A stretch of DNA of 64,000 bases from Cenococcum geophilum 1.58 (taxonomy: Eukaryota; Ascomycota; Dothideomycetes; Gloniales; Gloniaceae). Positions 3,034 to 45,044 of this stretch are shown here, piece after piece (within the stretch, counting starts at the first letter, position 1; every line of letters starts with the position of its first letter). The notes under the pieces are model-generated. The model worked only from the letters and a program-made list of their open reading frames with translations, had not been told where the DNA came from and searched no databases. The stretch is from assembly GCA_001692895.1 (NCBI GenBank), contig KV748181.1, positions 620,001 through 684,000 on the forward strand, in the 5' to 3' direction. The position numbers were made by a program, and so were the translations under genes.

Positions 3034-6000
3034 TTATCTAAAGCTTATTACTACTCTTTCTTTCTAAAAAGGAACTTAAAAACATCTACGGACTATAAAT
3101 AGAATAAGGATATAGAATAGAATAAGGATACTACTAGAACTATAAGAATAGGACAAAACTAAAAGAATATAAATAGAACGCGAAACCTAAGAATAGGACA
3201 CGTACGGACCAGAACCCCTAGAAAATAAACAAACAACCGGAAATTACCTAATACCCCTACTACTATGCCAAGAAATACAGCAGCTGGTAAAGCCGCTGCA
3301 GGACCCGCAAATACCTCTAATAGTAAAATAGTCGCCGTCCCGACCCCCTAGAAAGAGCTTATAGCAACTAATGCCGAAATTAAATGGCTTTAAGAACTGC
3401 TTAAAACTAGAGATACCCCTATACCTAGCGAGGAGTTATCGGATACCTATAGACTTGCTATAGTTCTTAAGGCCCTAGCCTAACGTATAGTATTAACATT
3501 ATTGCGGTCCGCGAAGGTCGCAGACCCCCTATTGCTTATAAATAGAACCAACCCTATATTTAATAACTGGAAGCTTTAATTGCAAGACAAGCTTAAAGTT
3601 AATACAGACTACTTTTCTAATACCCGAGCTAAAAGGGTATACGTCTTTAGCCGTACTAGTAGTGACGTATAGATATACCTACGTCCGCAATACGCCTAAG
3701 ACTTAGCAAACCCCTTCCTCTTAAAAGAAGAGATGATTAACTACCTATCTTCTATTTATAAGGACCCCTTTAAAGTATAAAACGCCCGGCTTGATTATAA
3801 AAGCCTAAATATAAAAACGATAGAGACCTTCTTAGTCTTCTAGACCCGCTTTCTACACCTAGCCGAATAGGCTTAAATCCCCTAGGAAAATCTAATGCTA
3901 GACCTCTTTAATAAGCTTACCCTAGACCTATAGCGCGCTGTACTGCTAGTTTATACTACTATATAGACGCTAAAGGAACTTACGGACTAATGCCTAGCTA
4001 TTAACCAGGGCCTTTATTAAATTAAGGTATAAGCCGAGCGGTATAAGACTAGAAGCTCTACTAACCAAAATATAAGTACTATAAAAACGGGCCGTAGCGC
4101 CCTAGTAAGATCCGTAGCCCCTATAGTACCGGCCGTATAGCCCGCCGCTAATTTAGCAGCTAGCCGTGTAGCTAGTTCTACCGTAGGTCTAGTAAATGCT
4201 CGGCCTATATACAGCAACCCCCGTATATAGGCCCTTAGTAATTAGGAAGCTTGCTTTTCTTACGGCTAGAAGGGCTATATTGTAAAGGATTGCCCGATAA
4301 ACGTAAAAGCGGGCAAGGTTTTATTAATCTAGGAGGATAGCATAGAGTTGGAAAAAGAGGAACCCTAAAGGAAGACTCCTCTCTAGGGTTAAAAGGGATT
4401 AATATATTATATATTAATCTGGGTTAGCTAGTTAGTAGAAGAAGCTGCACTATCCCTTATACTTTATTCTACAATAGATATTAAGTTTTAACCTCTGCTT
4501 TAGCTAACTCTAGAGTAAATGCCTTTGCCTTAATAGACACCTAGTATACTATAAAGCTAACTAATTTTTTAAATGCACCCCTTAAAGAACTGCCTAAACT
4601 AATCCCTATTTACGGGTATAACGGACGGATAGGACTACCTATTACGGCTATCTTGCGTATTTACCTCCGTGTTAATAGACGAAGATAATATAACGTCCCC
4701 TTTCTTATTACGGACCTGGGAAGCTATAATATAATCTTAGGGAGAAAATGGCTAGCTTATTTGGGCTTACAGCTCGACATACAGAGTAGACGGCTTATTT
4801 AGCCTAAAACCCTACCCCTAACCCCTTCTTTTATAAAAGAAATCAGTATTATAATAGAAAACCTTATACGGCCCCAGATTAACACTATTTATTAGGCTAA
4901 TGCCATGCGTAGGGACTAGGCCTTTAAGAAGGATATATAGCTTAATCTATAACGGATCCGTATACTGCGCCACCTACAGACTACCTATATTACGTTACCC
5001 GCACTAAAGGTATAGGAAGTTGGTAGTAACCTAGCTAAGCCCTCTACGGAGAATATGGGCCCTACGCAGCTATAAAGGAAAGCTAGAAATATTGGACGCT
5101 ATACTAAACTAATTAACCAGAAGGACAACTTACGGAAAATGGAACGTGAGCTAAGGAAGACTATAAACCCTATACCGCAAAATACGGCCTAATAAATATT
5201 AGTAAAGAAACCTACGGACCTCCTACCAGTTAATGTCTGCTATATTGGCGCTATAGGGTTCTATTAGAACTTAGTTTAGCCTACTACCGTTGCCTTTATA
5301 ACTAGCTTATACGAAATTAATTAAATAATTAAGGAAAAGAAAAGCAAGCTTAGTAGATAAGAAAGCGAGCTTATAGATAAGGAACTAGTAGATTAAAAAC
5401 TACCCTATTAATACCGGAAATTTAAGGACATATTCTCTAAGGTAGTATCTAATATACTTCCGCCTTACTAACTATACGACCATAAGATTAAGATCGAGCC
5501 AGATAAGGAAAACACCCTTAGCTATAGCCCCCTTCGTTAGCAGTCTGCTGCCAAATTATAGGCTATAAAGTAGTACCTTATTGATAACCTAGGTAAGGGC
5601 TTTATTAAGCCTAGCTAAGCCCCTTTTAACTTGCCTATTCTCTTTGTTAAAAAACCAAATAGAGGACTCCGCTTCTGCATTAACTACTATAAGCTAAATA
5701 ATATAACCCGTAAGGACCGCTATCCGCTACCCCTACTTAATAAAACTTTAGCCCAAATAAGTAGAGCTAAGATCTTTATAAAGCTAGATATCCGCTAGGC
5801 CTTCTACTGGATTAGTATAGACCCTAAATTAGAAGATTTTACTATATTTTAGACCTATTACGGAATATATAAATATAAAGTACTTCCTTTTAGACTAACT
5901 AACGGACTGGCTACGTACTAGCGATATATAAATAATATACTCTTTAACTACCTTAACAACTTCTATACGGCCTACCTAGATAATATTATAATCTACTCTA

Positions 6001-31957: not shown

Positions 31958-32131
31958 TGTTAGTATACTCGCTTTATCAACGTGCACGAATGTCACTTGT
32001 AGTGGTACGTATGCGGTGTTGAAGTTGGTAGTTTATTAATTGTAGTTGTCTAGAAGTAAGGGGTTGCTCTAAGGTCAAATCAGCTAGCCTCGCTTCGTAG
32101 TCTCGTGACCGCGTCACATGACTAATGTTCC
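31958..32131 (-). repeat. Right-lying LTR of C-1 (5' LTR by sense), interrupted
   Basis: TGTTAGTATACTCGC to ATGTTCC, lacking its last four bases, which reappear at 44989-44992 after element D. TAATGTTCC (32123-32131) and TAACGTTCC (44980-44988) are the two copies of D's target. Confidence 0.9.
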
Positions 32132-32153
32132 TTGTTTTAGTATGCTTAGACCA
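32132..32153. repeat. Left terminal inverted repeat of D
   Basis: Starts TTGTTTTAGTATGCTTAG and ends ACCA. It pairs with 44958-44979 with five mismatches, all of C/T or G/A type. Confidence 0.85.
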
Positions 32154-32794
32154 AGAAACTAATAAATATCCGCTGCGCGGATTATTGAATATCCGCAAGC
32201 TAACCTATTTGATTAATCTATCTGTTTCTTAGTCTAAGCCACTTTAGCAAGCTTTTGGAAGCTAAGCCGCTCTATTTATATAAGGCAAACTATTAACTTT
32301 GACGAAATTAATATAAGCAACCGCTACGTTTATTATCCTATAAATACCTACGTTAGAATCGCCTTAATTAGCTCTCTAATTAATAGATTTTCTAGAACTA
32401 ACTGCCAGCTATAGGTGCATCTAAAAGGCGTTAAAGAAACCCCTCTACTTTATCTAGCAGGAGCCAGTCTTCTTAAGCTTTTAATAATAAACTACCCTCT
32501 TTATTAACTAATACCGCTAGAGGATTAAAAGATACAGCGGATATAGTACCTAAGGGCATTAGTAGTCTCGTCCTACCCCTATTATCTCCCCTATTACTAT
32601 TTTTAGCTTAAATACGGTCCTTAATAGCCTACTTACTGCTACTAAACTATATAGATCCCTAAGAGAATAAAGAAGTAGGAGTTAATAAAATACCCATAAT
32701 ACCCGTAATATCCGCAATATCCGCAATATCCGCTAAGAGGATATCCGCTATAGAGAAGGTCTAGGTAATTATTAACTGTTTTAAGTTATAGTAA

Positions 32795-35062
32795 ATGTCT
32801 ATAGAAGACCTAGCGCTTAAATAGATTATAATGGCTGAAGGTTTACGTAAGGCACTAAAGAAGAAAAGAGTAAGAGAGCTCCTTAATAAACTTTTAGAGG
32901 ATACTAATATCCTAAATATCTATGCTAAAGAGATAAAGAAACGCGGTATAGTAGGTATTAGTATTACTCTTACTATCTAGGGAGAGCTTAAAGAGCTAAG
33001 GGAGAAAGAGTTACTATTTAGCGGCTTTAACTAATATGCGGATATTAAGCAGCTTGACCTTAGGCAGTGCTATTAAGCTATAAAGACTTATATACCTATA
33101 CTAGAGCACGTAATTACAGTATATTAAAAGGGTTAATATAAATATTCTTTATATAAAGGCCGTGTAGTTCTAATAGCTTTTACACTTATATTTAGCCTTT
33201 TATAAAACTCCGCAAATTATATCCTATAGCTGTTAGGGATATATCTCTAAGCTAACGGCGTTAAGTATTATGTACTTTCTGTGCTCTATGGGCTTAAATT
33301 AATTAATAGTTATATTACTTTAAATCGGCAGAAGGATCGGGTAACCTAGGAGTTAAGGTTTAGCCTATAATCTTCGCGGTCTAGGCGTATACTAACCTAT
33401 ATATAGGTGAAAATCCGTTTAATAGGTGCCGCTTCTAATATAATTATTATCTATAATAACTTTAACTACCTCTAATAAGTTTAGTATTAAATACTTAGGG
33501 ATACTAGGACGTTTTATTCGCGTATAACTAGTAAGGTTATCTTTAGCGTATATATACCTAATAGTGGGCTTTAATAAAGTATGCTTTATGCGGATATCCT
33601 AATTAAGTTCTTAGATATTATAAAGGCTCTAGGTAATTTATAAGACGAGATATAAAAGTAGATCTTAATAGCTTTAATCTATAAAGCTATTATAGAAGCG
33701 TACCTAGGCCTTAATGTATTACTTAGCAAAAACCTATAGTTTAAATGTCTATATATCCCTACTATTAATATAATACCCGCTGTGTGGACGTTTAGGCTTA
33801 ACCTAGGACCTATTATAACTAGAGAGGCTTCTATATCTAAAACCTATAAGGTACTAGATAATATCTTTCTTTATTAAATAAATCTATAATATACTAATAA
33901 AGTATTTAAGGAGCGACTGTTTCTAATCTATAGTAATTAAAAGACTATAAAGCTTATTTGGTTGTATTGGGGAGAATATATTAAGTTAATATCTGCCTAT
34001 AATAGCTTGTGTTAGGCTTTGCCTATTCTAGCTCTTTAGCACCTAAAGCTAAACTACCTATATATAGTTATACGGTATTACTATAGTGGCGAGTAATTAG
34101 CCTAAGAGTACTTTACGCTATATACTTATATAAACTACCTAGGTTAAAGGAATATCCTAGCTAAGCGTACACTGTTTTATTATATAGAGGAGCTAATTCT
34201 CTATAGTTTTGACACTTATATTATAGCGTTGCTCTATACTTAAATTAAGGGCTCCTATAATACTAAGTCGCCTATAGATATTAAGCGGTACCTTAAGAGT
34301 TTATCTCCGTAATGTTTATTAGTAGTAGTTAAGGATATCCGCATAGTTATTTTTAGTTAAAAAGTTTTTTAGGCGGCTAACTATGCTAGCTAGCCTACGG
34401 AACCGCGGTAAAAGGGTTACCCTAAGTAGGCTAGTAGTATTATATCTTTATAAATACTTTCTAAGCCTGCTAATATAGAGTTTTTAATATATATCCGCTT
34501 CTTATAACTAGTAGAGATATATAAAGTCCTTAAGCACGCTATTAAGCTTGCGAATATTGGCTTACTTAGCCACGTGCTCCCCTACATCTATATCTATTTC
34601 ATAGGTAGTTAGAATAAGAACTATCTATTAGAGATATTATATTTCTTCTAGTTAACTTTAACGGATGCCTATTCCCCTAAGCTCTAGTAAGCTATTTTAG
34701 CAAATAGTTTAGTAAATAACTGTGGCGAATAGAATAGTTACTACTTAATAGATCTTAATAATAAGTTACTTAATAGGGAGCTAAAGCAGCTTATATATAC
34801 TTATAGCAATTTAACGTTTAACCTAGACTTGCTTTTTCGCTAGAGCATCTATATAACTAATTATATAGGGCCACTACGTATAAAGTTTAAGATTATATTT
34901 GGTAAACAGATGCCTACTCAACATACTATTAAATCTACTGTAGTAGATATTTAATTACTTACTAATGCGATTGCCGCAGGCTCTATTATCCACTATTAGG
35001 TATAGTAAGTAAAGATAAAAGCGCCACCTTTATTATAACTAGGTATTAAACGACTTAATTAA
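32795..35062 (+). pseudogene. DUF6589 protein (PF20231), candidate transposase of D, about 755 codons
   Basis: From ATG 32795 (a second in-frame ATG at 32831) a single frame with no frameshift runs to TAA 35060-35062, interrupted by some 35 TAA/TAG. The N-terminus is basic and helical (KALKKKRVRELLNKLLEDTN). Then comes text that I match from memory to fungal DUF6589 proteins: IIIYNNFNYL near 33445, KVIFSVYIPNSGL near 33530, ITREASISKTYKVLDNIF near 33820, LVEIYKVLKHAIKLANIGLL (34505-34565), LSHVLPYIYIYFIGS, LVNNCGE then RELKQLIYTYSNLTFNLDLL (34778-34840), and a His/Thr tail QHTIKST near 34920. DUF6589 has no assigned activity that I know of. Being the main intronless gene of a TIR element, it is the best candidate for the transposase, but I can name no catalytic triad. 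It converges with the helicase gene. Confidence 0.82.
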
Positions 35063-35286
35063 TCTGCCCTTAATAAGTTTAATTGTAACCGACTACCCTG
35101 TCTCGTACCCTGCCAAAACACTACCCTGTCTTACCAGCGTATCACCCCATTTCAGCTATATATTAGTCTCCCCTTTCATTTTATTACCTGCACCTTCCTC
35201 GTGTATATATAGACGCTTTAGAGCTACATTTACAATCAAGTTGCTCGTTTAATTCCCACACTACAAAGCTTACATTAATTTATAGC

Positions 35287-35591
35287 TAGGCGGTAATTTT
35301 TCCGCCGTATTTAATAAGCTTAATCTCTATAATAATAATAATAAGTTAGATAGCTTTATACTACCTACTAATTTTACTTAAACCTAGCTTTAACCTGCGT
35401 ATAAGTTGCTTAATAAGTAATATAAGATATTAGCTATAAGCTATTACTATAACCGTTTAATATCCGCTATAGTTAGTAGCACTAGTACATATTCCTAAGT
35501 AATTAATATTATTAATTAATTAATCTATTTAGTTCCTAGGCTATACTTATAAAAGATATAGGGTAAGAGGGAAAAGGGGGGATTGTCCTAA
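35287..35591 (+). pseudogene. Possible small gene in D
   Basis: A plus-strand frame reads LGGNFSAVFNKLNLYNNNNK, then Tyr/Ser-rich text including SAIVSSTSTYS and KIQGKREKGG, with TAA/TAG breaks, to about 35591. A TATA-like GTATATATAGACGC lies at about 35200. No ATG is evident, and no family is recognised. It could be a third D gene or a chance open stretch. Confidence 0.3.
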
Positions 35592-35869
35592 TAGATATTA
35601 GCTACTATAGTTGTAATATCCGCTTAGCAGATATAAGGTAAACTTACCTAGTATTAGCTAACCCTACCTAATATTAGCCAACCTTGCCTAATATTAGCCT
35701 GCTATATACTAATTAGCGTTACTATTAATTTTTTATAGTGCTCTTTGTATATATTTACCTTTATTTAATTACGCTAACTGCCTTTACGGTACTAATAAAG
35801 ATGTATTTAACTAGCAGTTTGCTAGTGGTATAGATATATCGAACGGTTAGTATAAGGGTAATAATAGAG

Positions 35870-36568
35870 GAGCAGGAGCTAGAGACTTAAGAGTTAGTAA
35901 AGGTATAGGTACATCCTCTTCCTAAGTTATTAGTAAGAGGTTTATAGCTAACTATTAACTAGCCTATAATATATTAACGCTATAGCGAGGCGCTAATTAC
36001 TACGGTGCTAATATTTTAAATCTTTTATCTAAAACCTACGAAGCCTATATAAGAGCTTATAATAAACGCTTATCCGTAATAGCGTGCTACTCTAATGCTT
36101 AGGAAAACCGCTTTAATATCTATATAATTAACCTAGAAGAACCTAAGAGTTGCCCTATTTCTTTCTGTTTATACTTTTATTCCTTATTTACTAAAAGCTT
36201 AATAAGAAATAGAAGCTTCTTACTAAGGATATTAGGATCTCACTTAGGTATTACTTACTTTAATAATGCTATATCTAGAACCTACCCTATATTATAAAGG
36301 CGATAGAGCTGTTTATCTGGTATAATATAATTAACTATAGGCGTTTATAGTATATCCTAATACCTAGCCTCCACCTATTACGTAAACTACTTTTATATAT
36401 TGCTTAATATAGGCTTCTAGTGGGTTTTTATAATATCCGCACTATAGCTAGCGCGGATATTATACTTATAATCCGTAAATATTGCTAGGTTATAGTTATT
36501 ATAATATACGTCTTTATTAACAGTAGACTGTGGGTCTCTATAGTGTATAAGTTATATTATTTGTAAGT
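35870..36568 (-). pseudogene. C-terminal part of the D helicase gene, beyond nested C-2
   Basis: Minus-strand text near 36300-36400 reads AYIKQYIKVVYVIGGG then LGYTINAYSQLYYTRQTALS. It has the look of a Cys-poor remnant of the Zn-binding tail that follows the helicase core in fungal RecQ-like proteins. It continues the frame region of 42789-44560 once C-2 is taken out. Text to about 35870 remains weakly coherent. The end is uncertain. Confidence 0.4.
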
Positions 36569-36573
36569 ATACC

Positions 36574-36747
36574 TGTCGGTATACTCGCTTTATCAACGTG
36601 CATGAATATCACTTATAGTAGTACGTATGCGGTGTTGAAGTTGGTAGTTGTTTTTTTGATGTCTAGAAGTAAGGGGTTGCTCCAAGTTAGATTAGCTAGT
36701 CTTGCCTCGTAGTCCTATAACCACGTCACGTGATTAACGTTCCGACA
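36574..36747 (-). repeat. 3' LTR of C-2 (left-lying)
   Basis: TGTCGGTATACTCGC to GTTCCGACA, 174 bp, near-identical to 42610-42783. The ends TGTCGG/CCGACA are inverted. Confidence 0.93.
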
Positions 36748-36865
36748 CTGGAGCAACTCTAAAAAGAAGGCTAATCTACACTCTAAAGTTAAGTCTACTT
36801 CTAGACTATTTGTAGCGTATACGCAATAGCCGAGCTTTTCCTCAAATTAATACGCAATAGCGATT

Positions 36866-36950
36866 TTCTGCCAAATTCTGCCATATTGCCAAATTCTGCC
36901 GAATTCTGCCATATTGCCGAATTCTGCTAAATTCTGCCGACCCTGCTAAA
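36866..36950. repeat. TTCTGCC minisatellite near the C-2 3' LTR
   Basis: Alternating AAATTCTGCC, GAATTCTGCC and ATATTGCC units, about eight in all. It has the same position as the 29-bp array in C-1. Confidence 0.8.
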
Positions 36951-39900
36951 CCGGAGTTAAATCCGTTCGCTTAACCTAACCTACAGCCTATATATCGACT
37001 TGGTTCGTGTTAATAAGTCGCTGTAGAGTAATATAAGGCTTCTCCTTGGTTATTGCGTCCGTGGGGTTAGTTTCACCATTAATCCATTTAACCTCTGTAA
37101 TCTGCCGACGTTCGTAAGCTTATTATAGGCATATTATATTAATTATTAATTGCTTCTCTTATATGGTTCTAAGTTGTATAAGACAGTTATATAGCGACTT
37201 AGAATCGGTGTAAAGCATAAGCGGGAGGTTAATCTATAGGACCTTGTCTACTGTGGACTTAATAGCGGCGGCGATATTAAAACCGTAAGCTATTCCGTAG
37301 AGTTTAGAAGCCAGAATACTTCTAGTAACTCTTTTACACTTAATTAAGCTCTAATAGATAATATTGGCCTTCTTAGTTACGTTAGCTAGTATAATAATAT
37401 AGCCGATCTGCGAAGAAAGGTCCTTATTATTAGTAAAGAAAGCGTCTATAAAGACTAGGAGCTATAGGGTTTTAGCCTCCAATTTAATAAACTTAAGACC
37501 TTTATATAAATTCTAAATCTGCCAACTTAGGCGCTTATTTAATTTCTTCGCGTCTACCTCCTTGGGGTTAATTACCTAGGTAGTAAAGGATAAGTTAAAT
37601 AAAGCCTCTGGCTAACAAACTGAGGCAATATAGGCTCCCCTGGCGCGTTAAGCGATATACTAGTCCTTTAGTATAAGTAGGCCACGCGTAACTCCCCTAG
37701 AGCTAATGCTGTCTACCGGCGTAGTATTAACCACACTAAGGTTCTTATACTAGCGCCTTTGCGTTAGCGTAATACTCCCGTCTTATATTAGTTAAATAAG
37801 TCCTCCATTAAACTTAATTGGTGTATTAGCGGTTAGTTACTCCCGTTCCTTAGCCATAAATTCAGCCTTATATAGTTCGCTTTATTTAGCCTCTATAAAG
37901 ATCTTATCTACAAGAAATAGCGTATTATCGGTCTATAGGCCAACAATTCTAAAAGGTTTATTACTGTAAAGCAAGCAAGGGTCGTACGTGGACTGGTCCA
38001 TTTGCAGTTAATTAATGTAGTGTAAATAGTAGGTCTTAAACTAGTGGTTTCCAGCTTTAGGCACTCTATAGAGTGGCTTTACAACCTTTAGAATAGAGTC
38101 CTTATTAATTCCCAATTGTTTATTTAACTCGTGTGGTGGTCATACGTAGAACTCGCGGTTTAGGTTCGTAGTAGACTAGACGTAGGCTTATAAGATATCT
38201 CGGAGGTAAAGTCGTGTCTATGGCAGCATAGCAGCGATATAGAGAATCAGCCGCTAACTAACTTGTTAAATTATTAATGACTAAGTAAGGACTAGCTCTT
38301 TCTCTAAATTATTATAGGCCTGTACGACAAGTTATAATTTCTTAAAGGCTTTATTAGTTCCCTTATTCTTAATCTTATTAACAAACCGTGAGTTAAAGAG
38401 TCTGACCCCCTTTGGTATATCGTGTAGCTTAATAATCTTAAAGACGCCTTTCTTAAGTAGGCCTATAACCTCCTTTTATTATAAGGCGCTAAATTAGGTA
38501 TTACCATCGTTCTATAAGTAGATAGCGATATTAGCGATATCTGCAATATTACCCGTAAAGGCACCTGTATCTATTATAGCGTCCGTAATAGCCGTGTCTG
38601 CGACGGCCGTAAGCAATAGGTATTTACAGGGGCGACCTCTGCCTCGCTTTAGCAGTAGCTATAGTTCGGCTTTAGGTAGCGATTAAGGTTTAGCTAGTAA
38701 AGGTACTTGTTTAGCTAATTTAATAGGCTCTTGTGGTTTAACTGGGTCTTATAGGTCCAGTAGGTAAGGTTTCACGACCATAAAGCGGAAGATCGTAGGC
38801 CCCTTTAGTAGCTTTATGGTATAGGTCTTACCGTTAACGGTAAGTAGCGTATATAGCCCATCCTAATAGCTACTTTAGCCAGTATTGCCTTCTCTCCAGA
38901 CTAAGACAGGCGAATTAGGTGGGGGGCCGTAAATGGCGTTAGTTCGTGGTCCGTTTCGCATATTAAGAGCGTCAGCGATCTATTGTTCAGCTTATAGCTT
39001 CTAGATTTCCACCATTGCTTTCTTAATAGCCGCAGCTTGCTATATAACTAAAGGTGATAGCGCGTCTAATTCAACCATTTGGGGGTAGGCTCTAAAGACT
39101 AGGAGTATAGGGACTAGGCCTTCTGGGCCAGCCGTGTTATTAATAGCTTTAAAAGCCATTTATAGGGCCATCTCCTTGCTAATTTTAGGGATTTTAGTCG
39201 TAATAATTTGGTAGGCTTGTTGTAGCGGACCGTAGTAGCGCTCTACCATTCCAATAGAATTGTGTGATTCGACTAGAACTAACTTTATAGTTACTCCTAT
39301 GGTGGCAGCGTAGTGCTTAAACTCCTTACTAATAAAGTTCTTCCTGGCGTCTATAGTGATTAGGTCTAGTAGTTCTAAATAGCTATTAATCTAGCATATC
39401 CGTAGAATGTCCTAAGTATACTTGGCGCTAATATCTCGTAGCTATCTACTAGCTTAAAATCGAGTTACTTTGTTAACTATGTGTAGTAGGGGGGAGCCGC
39501 TAATATATATAATGTCGACGATAATATTATAATTAAAATTGACGTTATCTTATAAGGTAAAGCGAAATCTACCTAGAGATTTACTAAACTTCTAGTAGTA
39601 GTGGCAGAGTCTAGTTAGCTCTTTAATAGCAGATCTATTAGTATTATAGCCGTAGCCAGCCTTATTAAGAAGCTTTTGCAGTTTATTAACTAACGGGTAA
39701 CCAAATCAATGGTGTAGACGTTATAGCTCTATATCAGTTAAGTAGCAAGGGTTTATATTAAAAGACTTAACTAAATAAGACTATAAAGAGAAGCTCTATA
39801 AGAGAAATAGGTGGCCAAATCATCTAACTACTGGCACTCTTTTAGTGCGAGTAATAATAACGTTTTTTAGGTTATTGTATTTAATATGGAGTCTATCTAT

Positions 39901-42074
39901 ATCTACTAAGTAGAGTAGGAAGAGAGTATTTGCTTTAATGATATGGAATTGTACCTTGCCTATAGGGCTGTTAACGTCTATAGTTTTGATAGACATAGAG
40001 GCTCTAATCCCGAATTAGATAGTTACTTAGCCCTTAGTTAATATATTAAGACTTATAGACTTATCTACGGCCTATAGGGCTTAGAATTGGCTATAGCTAG
40101 CTATAGACTTGCGCGAAGCACCTGTATTAATTATAATTCATATAAAGACCGTTAAGGTGTATCGTGACGCTGTGGTTGTGGCCGTATTATAGGCAAATAG
40201 GTTGGTCTCCGTGTAAGGTTCTATGGTAGACTCCGTAGTAAGTTCTAAAGCCGTAAGCAGGTGTGTATAAGCCTTATTAGCTAGCTCTATGCTTATAGAG
40301 GTTGCTTCCTCCGTAGTAAGTGTTCTAAAGGCGGTAATATAGGCAGAACTGTTGTTAGGTTCTCCGGCATCGTTTTTAGAGTCGTTAGCGTCGTATATAT
40401 AGGCTTTAAAGTCTAAGTTATCCTCTTTATCTCTTTCGCAGGCGGCAACGTATTATTTAAAGTAGTTGTTAAAGTTGCCCTTATTACGGCCCTTAATATT
40501 AATAAAACGTCTCTTATAGTCGTCTCTAGACTAATTATGCTCCTCCTCTGTGTGTTTCTATAAACGGCAGTCCTCCTTCTTACAGACGTAGCACTTGGCC
40601 TTTAGTCTGCCGTTAGTTCTGTAGGGGCGATTGCTGCCGTAGTGATTAGTGTTTCGGTCTCGATCCTGGTCATTTTAGTAGTAACGTTAATCCGTAAAAA
40701 AGGCTTAATAAGACGATCTTATTGAGGCCTATAGGGGGTATTCTTTTTCCTATATAATAATAGAGGATTATAGCTTACTGATTAACTGGGAGAGGTCTTC
40801 TAAAGGGTTAGAGACAGCAATACGGCATGCTGGTACTCCTTAGTAAGCAGTTACTAACTTATTTATAAGAATGCGGTTTATATAAAAGTCTAGGTGTAGT
40901 CTATAACGTTACTTTAGCAGTTTATCTATAAGCAGTTGGAAGTTCTAATAGATTAACTTATTAGGGTTCTCGTCCATAACTCCTTAGAGGGTTATGCTAT
41001 TCCATTCCGTAAGGTTCTTGCGGTAGTATTCCGGCCCTTTAAAGAATTATTATATGTAGTTGCAGGCTTTAGTAAAAGGTCTTAACTTAAGGTTGCTGTT
41101 ATAGTAGTGGTCCTAAGTAAGTCCCTTTAGCATACTAGGGAATGCCACTGCGTAGCCTTTTAGTGGTAAGCTAGATCTCTTACAGATGTTATAGAAGATG
41201 GTTAACTTAAAGTTAAAGCTGTTACTAACTCTATTATACTTTTGGTTATCTGTGTAGATCTTTACAATTATAGCTACCTCTTTACTATATTTAGGTCCTT
41301 GCCTAGGTCCTTGCTCTATACTAGGTACGGCTAGTTTAGGTAGTGTATATATGTGTGGCTACTGCGGTTGCTGTAGCTGCTATAGTTGCTGCTCTCTTAG
41401 CCATAGTAGTTGGTTAATAAAAGCGTGGATTTGGTCGTAATTAAAGGATTGAAAACCGGGAGGGGTAGTAGGGGTAGCAGGGGTAGTAATTGGAGTAGCT
41501 GGTGGTATAGCAGCTGGAGTAGTTAGCGGTGCATTAACCGGAGTAGCTGGTGATATAGCAGCTGGAATAGCTGGTGGAGTTAGTAGAGTAGCTAGTAGTG
41601 GGGCTGGAGGTGTAGTAAGCTTGTCTAAGGTTAAATTAAGTTGGTCTTGTAGAGTTATTATAATCATTAGCTTTACCTCTGCAAGGGCCGCGATAAGCTC
41701 CTTATCCGTCCATTTATAAAACTCTTCTTTATTAGTAACATCTATTAGCACCTTGCTAAAAGTGTACCTCTTATCTTACTTAATAACGTATACTCCTCTC
41801 TTAACTAGGTAGTTATAAATTCCCACTCTAGTTTTAGATTGTACTTATTTAAAGAGCTCTAGCGTAAAGTCTTTAAAGTCTTCTTAATATACTGTCTATA
41901 GTAAAAAGTCTATAAGGTTATGCCGTGTATATAGGTGCATCTTGGTCTCTATATACTTCGCTAGATTATTATCCGTAGCCGTCTCTAAGTTAATTCTATA
42001 GCCGTATTTAGCAATTCTTTCCTTCTAGTTAATTTCCATATTATCGTGTCTTTATATATAAGGGTAGTCGTCGT

Positions 42075-42170
42075 TTAGAAGTTAAGGTTAAGGTTAAGGT
42101 TAAGGTTAAGGTTAAGGTTAAGGTTAAGGTTAAGGTTAAGGTTAAGGTTGAGGTTAAGGTCGAGGTTAAG
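42075..42170. repeat. (GGTTAA)n tract in the C-2 leader
   Basis: About 13 perfect GGTTAA hexamers followed by GAGGTT/GAGGTC-type units. Equivalent to the GAGGTT tract of C-1, with the TGA steps read as TAA, as expected from RIP. It superficially resembles a telomeric repeat. Confidence 0.9.
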
Positions 42171-42259
42171 GTCGGGGGTGTAAAGGTGAGAGTGTAAGGG
42201 TATATGCGTGTCCCCTTAACAAATCTACAGTTTTTAAAGACTAAAGACTGAAGACGATT

Positions 42260-42570
42260 CTTAGCAAAGATACGGTCCTCTAGGCGATCTTACGCGTTAG
42301 CAGTTAAGTTAATACGTGGTCTTAAGCTTTAAGGTCCTCTAGGCGATCTAACGCGTTAACAGTTAAGTTAATGCGTGGTCTTAAGCTTTAAGGGGTAACG
42401 TAGCTCTCTCTAAGTAAAGATACGATTCTCTAGGCGATTTTACGCGTTAGTAAGCTAATACGTGGTCTTAAGCTTCGAGTGTAACGTAGCTTTCTCCTTT
42501 AACTGAAATAGGGCGATAGCTCTACAATCTAACGCGTTAGCAGTTAAGCTAATGCGTGGTTTCAAGCTTT
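42260..42570. repeat. Leader tandem repeats of C-2
   Basis: Four units sharing TCTAGGCGATCTWACGCGT and AATRCGTGGTCTTAAGCTT, matching those of C-1 at 31600-31920. Confidence 0.85.
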
Positions 42571-42609
42571 GCTATTGCGTATTTCCTAATCTATACGTCT
42601 ACTAATTAG

Positions 42610-42783
42610 TGTCGGTATACTCGCTTTATTAACGTGCATAAATATCACTTATAGTGGTACGTATGCGGTGTTGAAGTTAGTAGTTATTTTTTTAATGTCT
42701 AGAAGTAAGGGGTTGCTCCAAGTCAGATTAGCTAGTCTCGCCTCGTAGTCCTATGACCACGTCACGTGATTAACGTTCCGACA
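42610..42783 (-). repeat. 5' LTR of C-2 (right-lying)
   Basis: 174 bp, same ends as its partner, followed by ATACC target duplication. Confidence 0.93.
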
Positions 42784-42788
42784 ATACC

Positions 42789-44560
42789 TAATCCTCATTA
42801 ACTAGCCGCTATAGGGTAAATAGTAGTTTACTACGTAACTGTATATTAGTTAACCACTTCTTTAGGCGTAGGGTCGATATAATAAGCTCTTTAGGTAGGC
42901 GTATTATAGAACTACTAGGGCTTAACCTACGCCCGGTTTTTATATCTACTAACTACTTAGTACTAACTAACGCTATAGATAAAGCATTACCCGTAATATC
43001 CGCAGTCTCTACGTTTTATTGCCCGCGGATATTATTATATAGCGCGCTTACGCGAAGATCGCCTATATACTAAGGCTATGTATACTTAGAACCACCTAAT
43101 TTATTGCAAGGACTTTACTAGCGGCTCTTAACTATAAAGATTGCTTCGCCTAAGAGGCCTTCTCCTTGGCCTACCTAGCTAAACCGCTGTGTTAGTATAT
43201 TACAGGATTTATAGCGAGGCATTCTATATTGAATTAAACGGTAGATATCTAGGATATTTACACCGTATGCTACTATATCTAATATAACAAAAATTCAAAT
43301 TTAAGATATTGGGCGCGCGTATTCGGCGTATAAACGGTCTTTATTAATATCCGCAAGCGTTATATAGTAGCTCTATACCGCTTCTCTAGCAATAGTAGTA
43401 TTATAGCCGCGATAGATTAACTAGTTGCAAATAGTATTACAATAGGCAGCTATCTACTCCTTAAAATTAAAGAAAATAATCGTCTTTAGAATTAGCTAAA
43501 GTTAATTAAACTATTAGCGGTATATTTGCTATACGGATATTAAGCAGCTTTTTAATTACTCGCCCTTTTCTTAGTTACTATTACTAGCAGTATATAAATA
43601 CACTAGAGTAGCAGTAATAATAAAGTAAAGAGCTTAAAAGTCCTTCTTCTCTAGCGTAGTTATAACCCTCTATATAATCTTTAGCTCTAGCCAATTAATT
43701 AGGGTTTTAATAACTTGTATATTAGGTTTAAACCTAGCTAGCTTATATACGGTCTAAAATATAGAGGGGTTTAGTGTTGCGGTATATATAAACTAAGGCT
43801 TATTAACTAAGATTAAACGTACTTTAAAGAGTTGTGCGTACGCTATACGGAAAGTCTCTCCTTAATTAGTAAGTAGGTGTACTTTATTAACCACTATAAG
43901 GGTAATATAAGAACGAAATATTGGGTCTATTAGAACCTTATATAGCTTATTACTAACTAAAAGCTCTAGGGAGATAAGGATATATATATAGCTGCCCATA
44001 CGGATATCCTTAATTAGCTTAGCGGATATTGTTTTCCCCTATATATAGACAGGTCGAATATAAGGTAGCTTTATAATCTTTTTTACTTACTCTAACCTAA
44101 TTGCGTTAAGTAGAAGAACAATAATAATAACTGTATTAGGTATAAGATATGGTAGTGCTTATATTATTATACTCTTGTTAAAAGACATCTTAGCTACAAG
44201 TATAAGATCTTACTACTTAAATATTAGCACCCTTAGGGCCTTAAGCTGCTCCGTATAACCGCGGTATAGATATATCTCCGTAATAGCTTTATTTAGCTTG
44301 CTTATTTAAAGCTTATAAAAGCTGCTTATAAGCTAAGGTAGCTTCCTCTGTAGGCTATATAGCTATAAAGACCGCTAGGGATCTATTTTAATATAATCCC
44401 TAGCCTATTGTATACTGCTAGCTTATTAATCTGCTTAACTGGCTTGTAGTTTATAACCTCTTTACCTTATTTACTTTAATAGAGGCATTAGTAAATAGCG
44501 CTTAAAAGTAGTAAAGGGAGAGTAGAGGGTTAGATAAAGGTAGGGAGGACTTAAATATAT
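42789..44560 (-). pseudogene. RecQ-like superfamily 2 DNA helicase gene of D
   Basis: Minus-strand text reads TEQLKALRVLIFKQQDLILV (about 44260-44205; Q-motif side), then VAKMSFNKS (about 44200-44172; Walker A, Lys and Ser kept, preceding Gly now Asn). ALPYLIPNTVIIIVLLLNAI (about 44150) and KLIKDIRMGSYIYILISLE (about 43985) come next. VVNKVHLLTNWGETF-type text (about 43895-43855) is the DExH box altered from DEVH, and TATLNPSIF (about 43790) is motif III. Past about 43500 motifs V/VI of the second RecA lobe are readable in changing frames (IPDI-, RYKSCN-like), so one or more frameshifts lie there. This matches fungal RecQ-like helicases, which unwind DNA in the nucleus; related genes occur near telomeres in several fungi. 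Here it sits inside TIRs, convergent with DUF6589. Start uncertain; C-2 splits off its 3' end (see 35870-36568). Confidence 0.75.
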
Positions 44561-44909
44561 TATAATAGATAGATCTTAATGGGTTTTAATTATTAGATTA
44601 TAGATATAATAGATAGAGAGTAGGTGGTTAAGATTAACGCGTTATTAGTGCAGATATTGCTGATTATTTACTTTAGCAAACCACATTACGGCTATTTTAA
44701 AATTAATATTAGGAATGGGAAGGTGGGGAGACTTTTTACGTAAACCATTTAATTCACTAGAGCTTAGTGTATAATTAATAAATTTTTTAAGCTGCCTAAA
44801 CTCGTCGTAAGAGTAAGAAGTAAATATCTATAATATTAGCTATGCGGATATACTCACGTGTATTATAAACGTCGGCTAAAGTAGCTCAGACTATACAGGG
44901 ACAAATGGC

Positions 44910-44950
44910 CTAAACTAGTTTAGTGCCATCGGGCCGGATTTATCCGGCCT
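44910..44950. promoter_or_regulatory. Two hairpin-forming palindromes near the right end of D
   Basis: CTAAACTAGTTTAG (44910-44923) is a perfect palindrome. GGCCGGAT-TT-ATCCGGCC (44932-44949) has an 8-bp perfect stem and 2-base loop, and sits 8 bases inside the right TIR. Uncommonly, they have no RIP mismatch. They could be transposase-binding or end-processing structures. Confidence 0.6.
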
Positions 44951-44957
44951 CCCTATG

Positions 44958-44979
44958 TGGTCTAAGTATGCTGAGATAA
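44958..44979. repeat. Right terminal inverted repeat of D
   Basis: TGGTCTAAGTATGCTGAG then ATAA, the reverse of 32132-32153 apart from transitions. Followed by TAACGTTCC. Confidence 0.85.
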
Positions 44980-45044
44980 TAACGTTCCGACAGTTATATT
45001 ACTCTTATCGCTATTATACTGCTTACATTAATTAACTTATAGCT

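Follow-up and report, generated by a model that had tools for sequence, protein, structure and literature searches.

A repeat-induced point mutation-degraded DNA transposon of probable AcademH kind, pairing a DUF6589 gene with a RecQ-like helicase gene in Cenococcum geophilum

AcademH, a group of helicase-encoding DNA transposons reportedly defined in a 2020 paper by Kojima (Mob DNA 11:15), is the described system closest to the element treated here, which lies between inverted ends in a 64,000-nucleotide stretch of the Cenococcum geophilum 1.58 genome (contig KV748181.1, positions 620,001 to 684,000) and combines a gene of the Pfam family DUF6589 with a RecQ-like helicase gene. The whole stretch is called the window (G000:C6:620001-684000); coordinates without a prefix are window positions, and C numbers denote the contigs, 162 in all, of the 177 Mb genome. 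Other classes can be compared with the element through its target site duplications (TSDs), which are 9 bp long. hAT and P elements make 8-bp duplications and have no helicase, and Kolobok elements duplicate TTAA, so that hAT and Kolobok were rejected, while the 9-11 bp of MULE transposons include the length found here. According to excerpts of PMC10045372, AcademH produces TSDs of 9 or 10 bp and AcademX of 3 or 4 bp, a difference tied by the author to the encoded helicase or nuclease, and extracts of PMC10799480 place AcademH at low copy number in Basidiomycota, Ascomycota and Mucoromycota. KolobokH, a group of fungal DNA transposons for which excerpts of PMC9587614 describe a RecQ helicase, resembles the element in carrying such an enzyme within it, but its helicase lies downstream of the transposase domain, whereas a separate convergent gene is present here. 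The Kyakuja-Dileera-Zisupton (KDZ) transposons are likewise fungal and some carry accessory genes; according to excerpts of PMC12730594, the TSD is 8 bp in Zisupton and 7 bp in Kyakuja and the accessory gene is TET/JBP with no helicase, and KDZ was rejected on TSD length. Helitrons, which extracts of PMC4522978 describe as having neither inverted ends nor target duplications, were rejected because the element has both. The subtelomeric RecQ-like genes of fungi, treated in the same extracts, share a RecQ-like helicase and an occurrence in several AT-rich copies, but the helicase of the element sits within a transposon with terminal inverted repeats (TIRs), alongside its own putative transposase.

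With a probability of roughly 85%, the window element is read as a copy killed by repeat-induced point mutation (RIP); the DNA transposon itself would belong to the AcademH kind and be autonomous and of the cut-and-paste type. It has a helicase, a 9-bp TSD, TIRs and a DDD/E-type transposase predicted from its fold and conserved D, D and E residues, and AcademH is a helicase-encoding transposon with a 9- or 10-bp TSD found in animals and in fungi including Ascomycota (PMC10045372 and PMC10799480, in excerpt). Placement with AcademH is thus the most likely one by anatomy, in a comparison made with the description of AcademH alone and carrying no claim of common descent. DUF6589 might instead mark a superfamily separate from Academ that acquired a RecQ-type helicase independently, as KolobokH did. 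RecQ helicases have entered DNA transposons more than once (Kolobok, in the excerpted PMC9587614), no result of this analysis ties DUF6589 to an Academ sequence, and no paper linking DUF6589 to such transposons was found in the literature searched under that name, the four listings returned for the family accession concerning other subjects, to judge by their titles; however, helicase, 9-bp duplication and fungal presence all match AcademH as excerpted, and a second lineage with the identical combination would be the less simple account, which makes this alternative improbable. A first-pass annotation of the window had stated that no described class with this gene pair was known to it. The claim of an undescribed class probably fails, given the helicase and 9-/10-bp TSD of AcademH and the RecQ gene of KolobokH (PMC10045372 and PMC9587614, both in excerpt); its observations were otherwise confirmed and its interpretation was partly supported.

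The boundaries of the element were established from its ends. The two TIRs are equal at 17 of 22 positions and all five differences are transitions, as had been noted at first pass; a degenerate end pattern with one mismatch allowed matches the window only at these two places and is absent from 100 shuffles. The flanking TSD copies differ by one transition, and the empty target taacgttcc occurs at 36735-36743 and 42771-42779 in the two long terminal repeats (LTRs) of a retrotransposon nested within the element, with 4 bp between it and the LTR end in both cases. Because both nested LTRs hold this empty site, the insertion is placed inside the LTR of a related retrotransposon, in agreement with the first-pass annotation as far as the LTR is concerned; its label Copia is less firm, the basis being an RVT_2 match too weak for the Pfam cut-off (E 1.3e-4), the LTRs and a 5-bp duplication.

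The same ends recur across the genome. A 401-bp right-end probe matched at least 40 other places, only within its first 92 bases, and most matches stop at base 80-83, at or just past 44979. A left-end probe matched at least 39 other places, of which 38 begin within 32127-32139 and one at 32153. At least 17 left-right pairs on one strand and within 20 kb were obtained, including that of the window; among the pairs listed, five measure about 6.42-6.44 kb and six 1.1-1.5 kb. An exact 9-bp TSD flanks 12 of the 16 pairs outside the window, two more differ by one transition, and two have none, one of the latter being the C30 pair, whose best left-end match is not the expected one. The ends free of RIP read TTGACTCAGCATGCTCAGACCA on the left and, from the outside inwards, TTGTCTCAGCATGCTCAGACCA on the right. 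The window element is a real, well-bounded transposon. At C28:1646144-1646305, two right ends abut with their outer ends together within 162 bp.

The DUF6589 gene reported at first pass was recovered by Pfam at 33773-34795 with an E value of 7e-26, in a translation with X at stops. Its intact counterpart on C41 and C43 is a 957-codon frame encoding 939 amino acids from the first methionine, to which the window gene is 64% identical over 32411-35086. Relative to this copy, about 200 extra bases are present at about 35087-35285, near the 3’ end of the gene; a restricted check of them for inverted ends was negative. The Pfam search of the intact protein returned DUF6589 as the sole family, with no MULE or Transposase_mut match, a result that remote homology may escape, and a DUF6589 profile gave no convincing match among PDB sequences, only the fold comparison being productive. 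In that comparison, which the first-pass annotation had suggested, DDE transposases appear in the 26 best rows, and the hAT (Hermes) and P element transposases show 8-11% sequence identity in the aligned parts; no retroviral integrase is present among the VIA-align rows, an absence that excludes nothing. Three candidate catalytic residues, D351, D511 and E787 in the numbering of the intact protein, are conserved.

Homologue searches, each of which scored the roughly 8,000 candidates with the most words in common, returned one match for the broken protein, 66 in the next search and two for an alignment query, one of these two being new and from Trametes. Named matches among the candidates scored include Fusarium, Metarhizium, Stachybotrys, Lactarius and Trametes, and 12 of the 14 organism-named matches of the 66-match search are from ascomycetes. 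In IMG/VR, 63 pattern matches were obtained and none was confirmed as a relative.

The convergent helicase gene was likewise borne out, although the window copy is broken. Pfam found no match in it, and phmmer against PDB returned WRN, BLM and RECQ5 with a best E value of 2.3e-7. The intact helicase, a single 883-codon open reading frame (ORF) with Pfam DEAD and Helicase_C domains, aligns to 44575-42791 with its residues up to 595 and to 36575-36477 with those from 596 onward; the window gene is in two parts because a second Copia-like element was inserted between them (36574-42783). The first 629 codons of the intact gene match PDB RecQ sequences at 2.5e-20, and its protein carries the helicase motifs TSFGKS, DEVH, TAT and QRFGRAGRG.

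The intact element was reconstructed from several contigs, none of which holds a whole copy. A genome search for DUF6589 gave at least 102 matches (102 of 274 candidates scored), eight of them without a stop, and seven of these eight form one near-identical family. C41 and C43 contain the left end and the 957-codon frame and stop inside the helicase gene. C9, C42, C74 and C149 share their first base, which lies within the transposase gene, do not differ over the first 2,748 bp, and reach the right inverted repeat at 4892, after which four different flanks follow. Joining the left end of C41 to the right end of C9 gives an element of 6,443 bp. Insertion of these copies at telomeres was considered and rejected, since four contigs with the same first base enter four different flanks; the shared start looks like an assembly break. 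The intact-gene copies apparently represent recent insertions in a genome where RIP has wrecked most copies, and a role of the helicase in a cut-and-paste-type transposon thereby becomes testable.

The pairing of the two genes extends well beyond the window. Of the helicase matches listed (at least 72 matches, with 70 of 401 candidates scored), 42 have a DUF6589 match in opposite orientation, tail to tail and within 12 kb (40 different partners), no same-strand DUF6589 match lies within that distance of any of them, and 30 have no partner among the DUF6589 matches listed; when the DUF6589 positions were shifted by 60-400 kb, 0-2 pairings remained. Among the ends listed, the window included, DUF6589 lies at the expected place beside 14 of the 40 on the left and 16 of the 41 on the right, against 0-2 in shifted controls.

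A second family, on C75 and C4, repeats the arrangement: its DUF6589 protein is 52% identical to that of the first family (324 of 622 aligned positions), its convergent helicase is 45-51% identical to the first-family helicase, and the left end on C75 agrees with the first-family end pattern in 20 of 22 positions, of which one is free. The C4 copy (C4:351495-362381, 10,887 bp) is flanked by an exact 9-bp duplication, GATTAGCGC, and this family (C4, and C75 from 754919) has extra ORFs between the genes, some with a cysteine cluster and others in the form of short frames that are repeated. The C75 copy, followed up to 762400, had suggested a family without a helicase, a notion rejected once the helicase was found further on. 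The most distant transposases, at the DUF6589 loci L020 and L030, are 27-30% identical to the first family. At C14:143845-144635, two ends of the second-family type face inward over 791 bp end to end, likely a short non-autonomous copy.

These data support the view that DUF6589 and the helicase form a unit, maintained in two families that have diverged. Could both genes nevertheless be passengers of an element moved by another enzyme? Short two-ended copies of about 1.1-1.5 kb imply that the ends can be moved in trans, and many listed ends have no DUF6589 gene nearby. Yet the longest frame in the intact element after the two genes has 133 codons, the DUF6589 fold is transposase-like, and the association of ends, DUF6589 and helicase is preserved in two families between which about half of the DUF6589 protein positions differ; in the copies examined in this genome, the same ends were not seen around a different transposase. 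The passenger explanation is thus highly improbable, and was rejected because no third long gene is present. The DUF6589 protein is very probably the transposase of the element, as first proposed, and of predicted DDE type, because of its fold, its conserved D-D-E residues, the helicase being the sole other long ORF, and the linkage of ends and genes in the genome. A likely function, with candidate catalytic residues, is thereby offered for a Pfam family of unknown function.

In the proposed mechanism, the DUF6589 transposase would bind and pair the ends and cut them with an RNase H-like site formed by D351, D511 and E787; the ends would then be joined to the target with a 9-bp stagger, and joins so spaced would yield the 9-bp duplication. 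More speculatively, the RecQ-like helicase might unwind the ends, or else the product of strand transfer, while the element is excised, repaired or copied. The products visible at sequence level are the ends, the 9-bp TSDs, the two-ended short copies and the near-identical insertions.

The nested Copia-like element, the heavy RIP and the extra bases near 35.09-35.29 kb are features beyond those of the first-pass annotation. The nested body (36574-42783) has LTRs of 174 bp at 36574-36747 and 42610-42783 that are 95% alike, a 5-bp TSD ATACC, and RIP damage of its own. Across the window, dinucleotides carry a strong RIP-like mark, TpA/ApT values in 1-kb bins being mostly 1.4-2.1; this and the named DUF6589 matches suggest a filamentous ascomycete as the source. 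Set against the intact copy, the right part of the element shows 353 transitions, 343 of them RIP-directed, and 9 transversions, and the left part 746 transitions and 28 transversions with 458 gap columns. A Copia-like element would have arrived first, the transposon would have entered its LTR, and a second Copia would then have entered the helicase gene, with RIP acting in addition. The related Copia-like host of the transposon is seen at 31.0-32.1 kb, and the host LTR ends at 44992. Feature coordinates are collected in Table 1.

Table 1. Coordinates of the window transposon and of its internal and flanking features
Feature	Position	Strand	Remark
Left TSD copy, taatgttcc	32123..32131	.	9-bp target site duplication
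Left terminal inverted repeat, 22 bp, TTGTTTTAGTATGCTTAGACCA	32132..32153	+	
RIP-broken DUF6589 (PF20231) gene, putative DDE transposase	32411..35417	+	Compared with the intact 939-aa protein
RecQ-like helicase gene, 3’ part, left of nested Copia	35715..36573	-	Low end estimated from intact ORF length
Nested Copia-like retrotransposon including TSD	36569..42788	-	Later insertion, foreign to the transposon
RecQ-like helicase gene, 5’ part	42789..44575	-	Alignment to intact copy
Right terminal inverted repeat, 22 bp, TTATCTCAGCATACTTAGACCA	44958..44979	-	
Right TSD copy, taacgttcc	44980..44988	.	The final 4 bp of the outer LTR come next
20 dispersed ATATCCGC/GCGGATAT sites in the transposon	32166..44851	.	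None in the nested Copia

The transposon is further distinguished by a dispersed 8-bp word, ATATCCGC. Counted on either strand, there are 26 sites in the intact element of 6,443 bp, where 200 shuffles give a mean of 0.3 and a maximum of 3 and no 8-mer exceeds 6 occurrences. Synonymous-codon shuffling, which preserves protein and codon use, does not account for its 7-mer TATCCGC, found 14 times in the transposase gene (shuffled mean 1.4, maximum 6 in 1000), 8 times in the helicase gene (mean 1.3, maximum 5) and 7 times in the second-family transposase (mean 0.9, maximum 4). Sites are spaced about 250 bp apart on average throughout the element, coding regions included, and fall mostly at different positions across diverged families, only two coinciding between the two families. 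In 30 DUF6589 loci (118.6 kb), several of which are copies of one family, 370 sites were counted against 43 of the reversed word, and 28 of the 30 carry 1.7-4.2 sites per kb. The word is absent from L020 and L030, where the search for another dispersed word gave one weak, partly tandem candidate in L020, TAGGAGTT, and none in L030. Outside the transposon, the window contains four sites in its other 51 kb, and the reversed word occurs three times in the transposon and three times in those 51 kb. Four short copies all have sites near the left end, and two of the four near the right end.

The word might be an internal code marking element DNA for its own transposase or helicase, a tentative and rather doubtful idea, likened to Chi or uptake signals and serving, for example, helicase loading or the distinction of self from target. 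If bound by an element protein, it would be, to our knowledge, a new kind of cis signal in eukaryotic transposons. The sites may instead lack a function and derive from a minisatellite unit of the host, AATATCCGC, spreading by expansion or insertion, which is plausible at somewhat less than even odds. This is a serious rival because CAATATCCGCA is frequent genome-wide (1,053 against 384 of the reversed word), partly in short arrays at 9-/18-bp steps away from the listed transposons; one short array also lies within the transposase gene (32708-32741), and several sites form small inverted pairs. A minisatellite origin fits less well with the genome-wide count of ATATCCGC, which is not high (15,430 against 26,725 of the reversed word), with its absence from the nested Copia and scarcity elsewhere in the window, and with its density in the DUF6589 loci, above codon-preserving shuffles and at mostly different positions per family. 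A literature search on the dispersed word returned a single listing, apparently unrelated. As far as the searches reach, the link to DUF6589, the set of intact-gene copies and the dispersed word may be new.

Arrays of a 9-bp unit, CAATATCCG, were observed away from the listed transposons, for instance at C2:541622-541650, C2:5735431-5735486 and C3:1993447-1993502. Inverted pairs of ATATCCGC in the intact element, such as those at 3297/3307 and 4114/4133, could form small hairpins.
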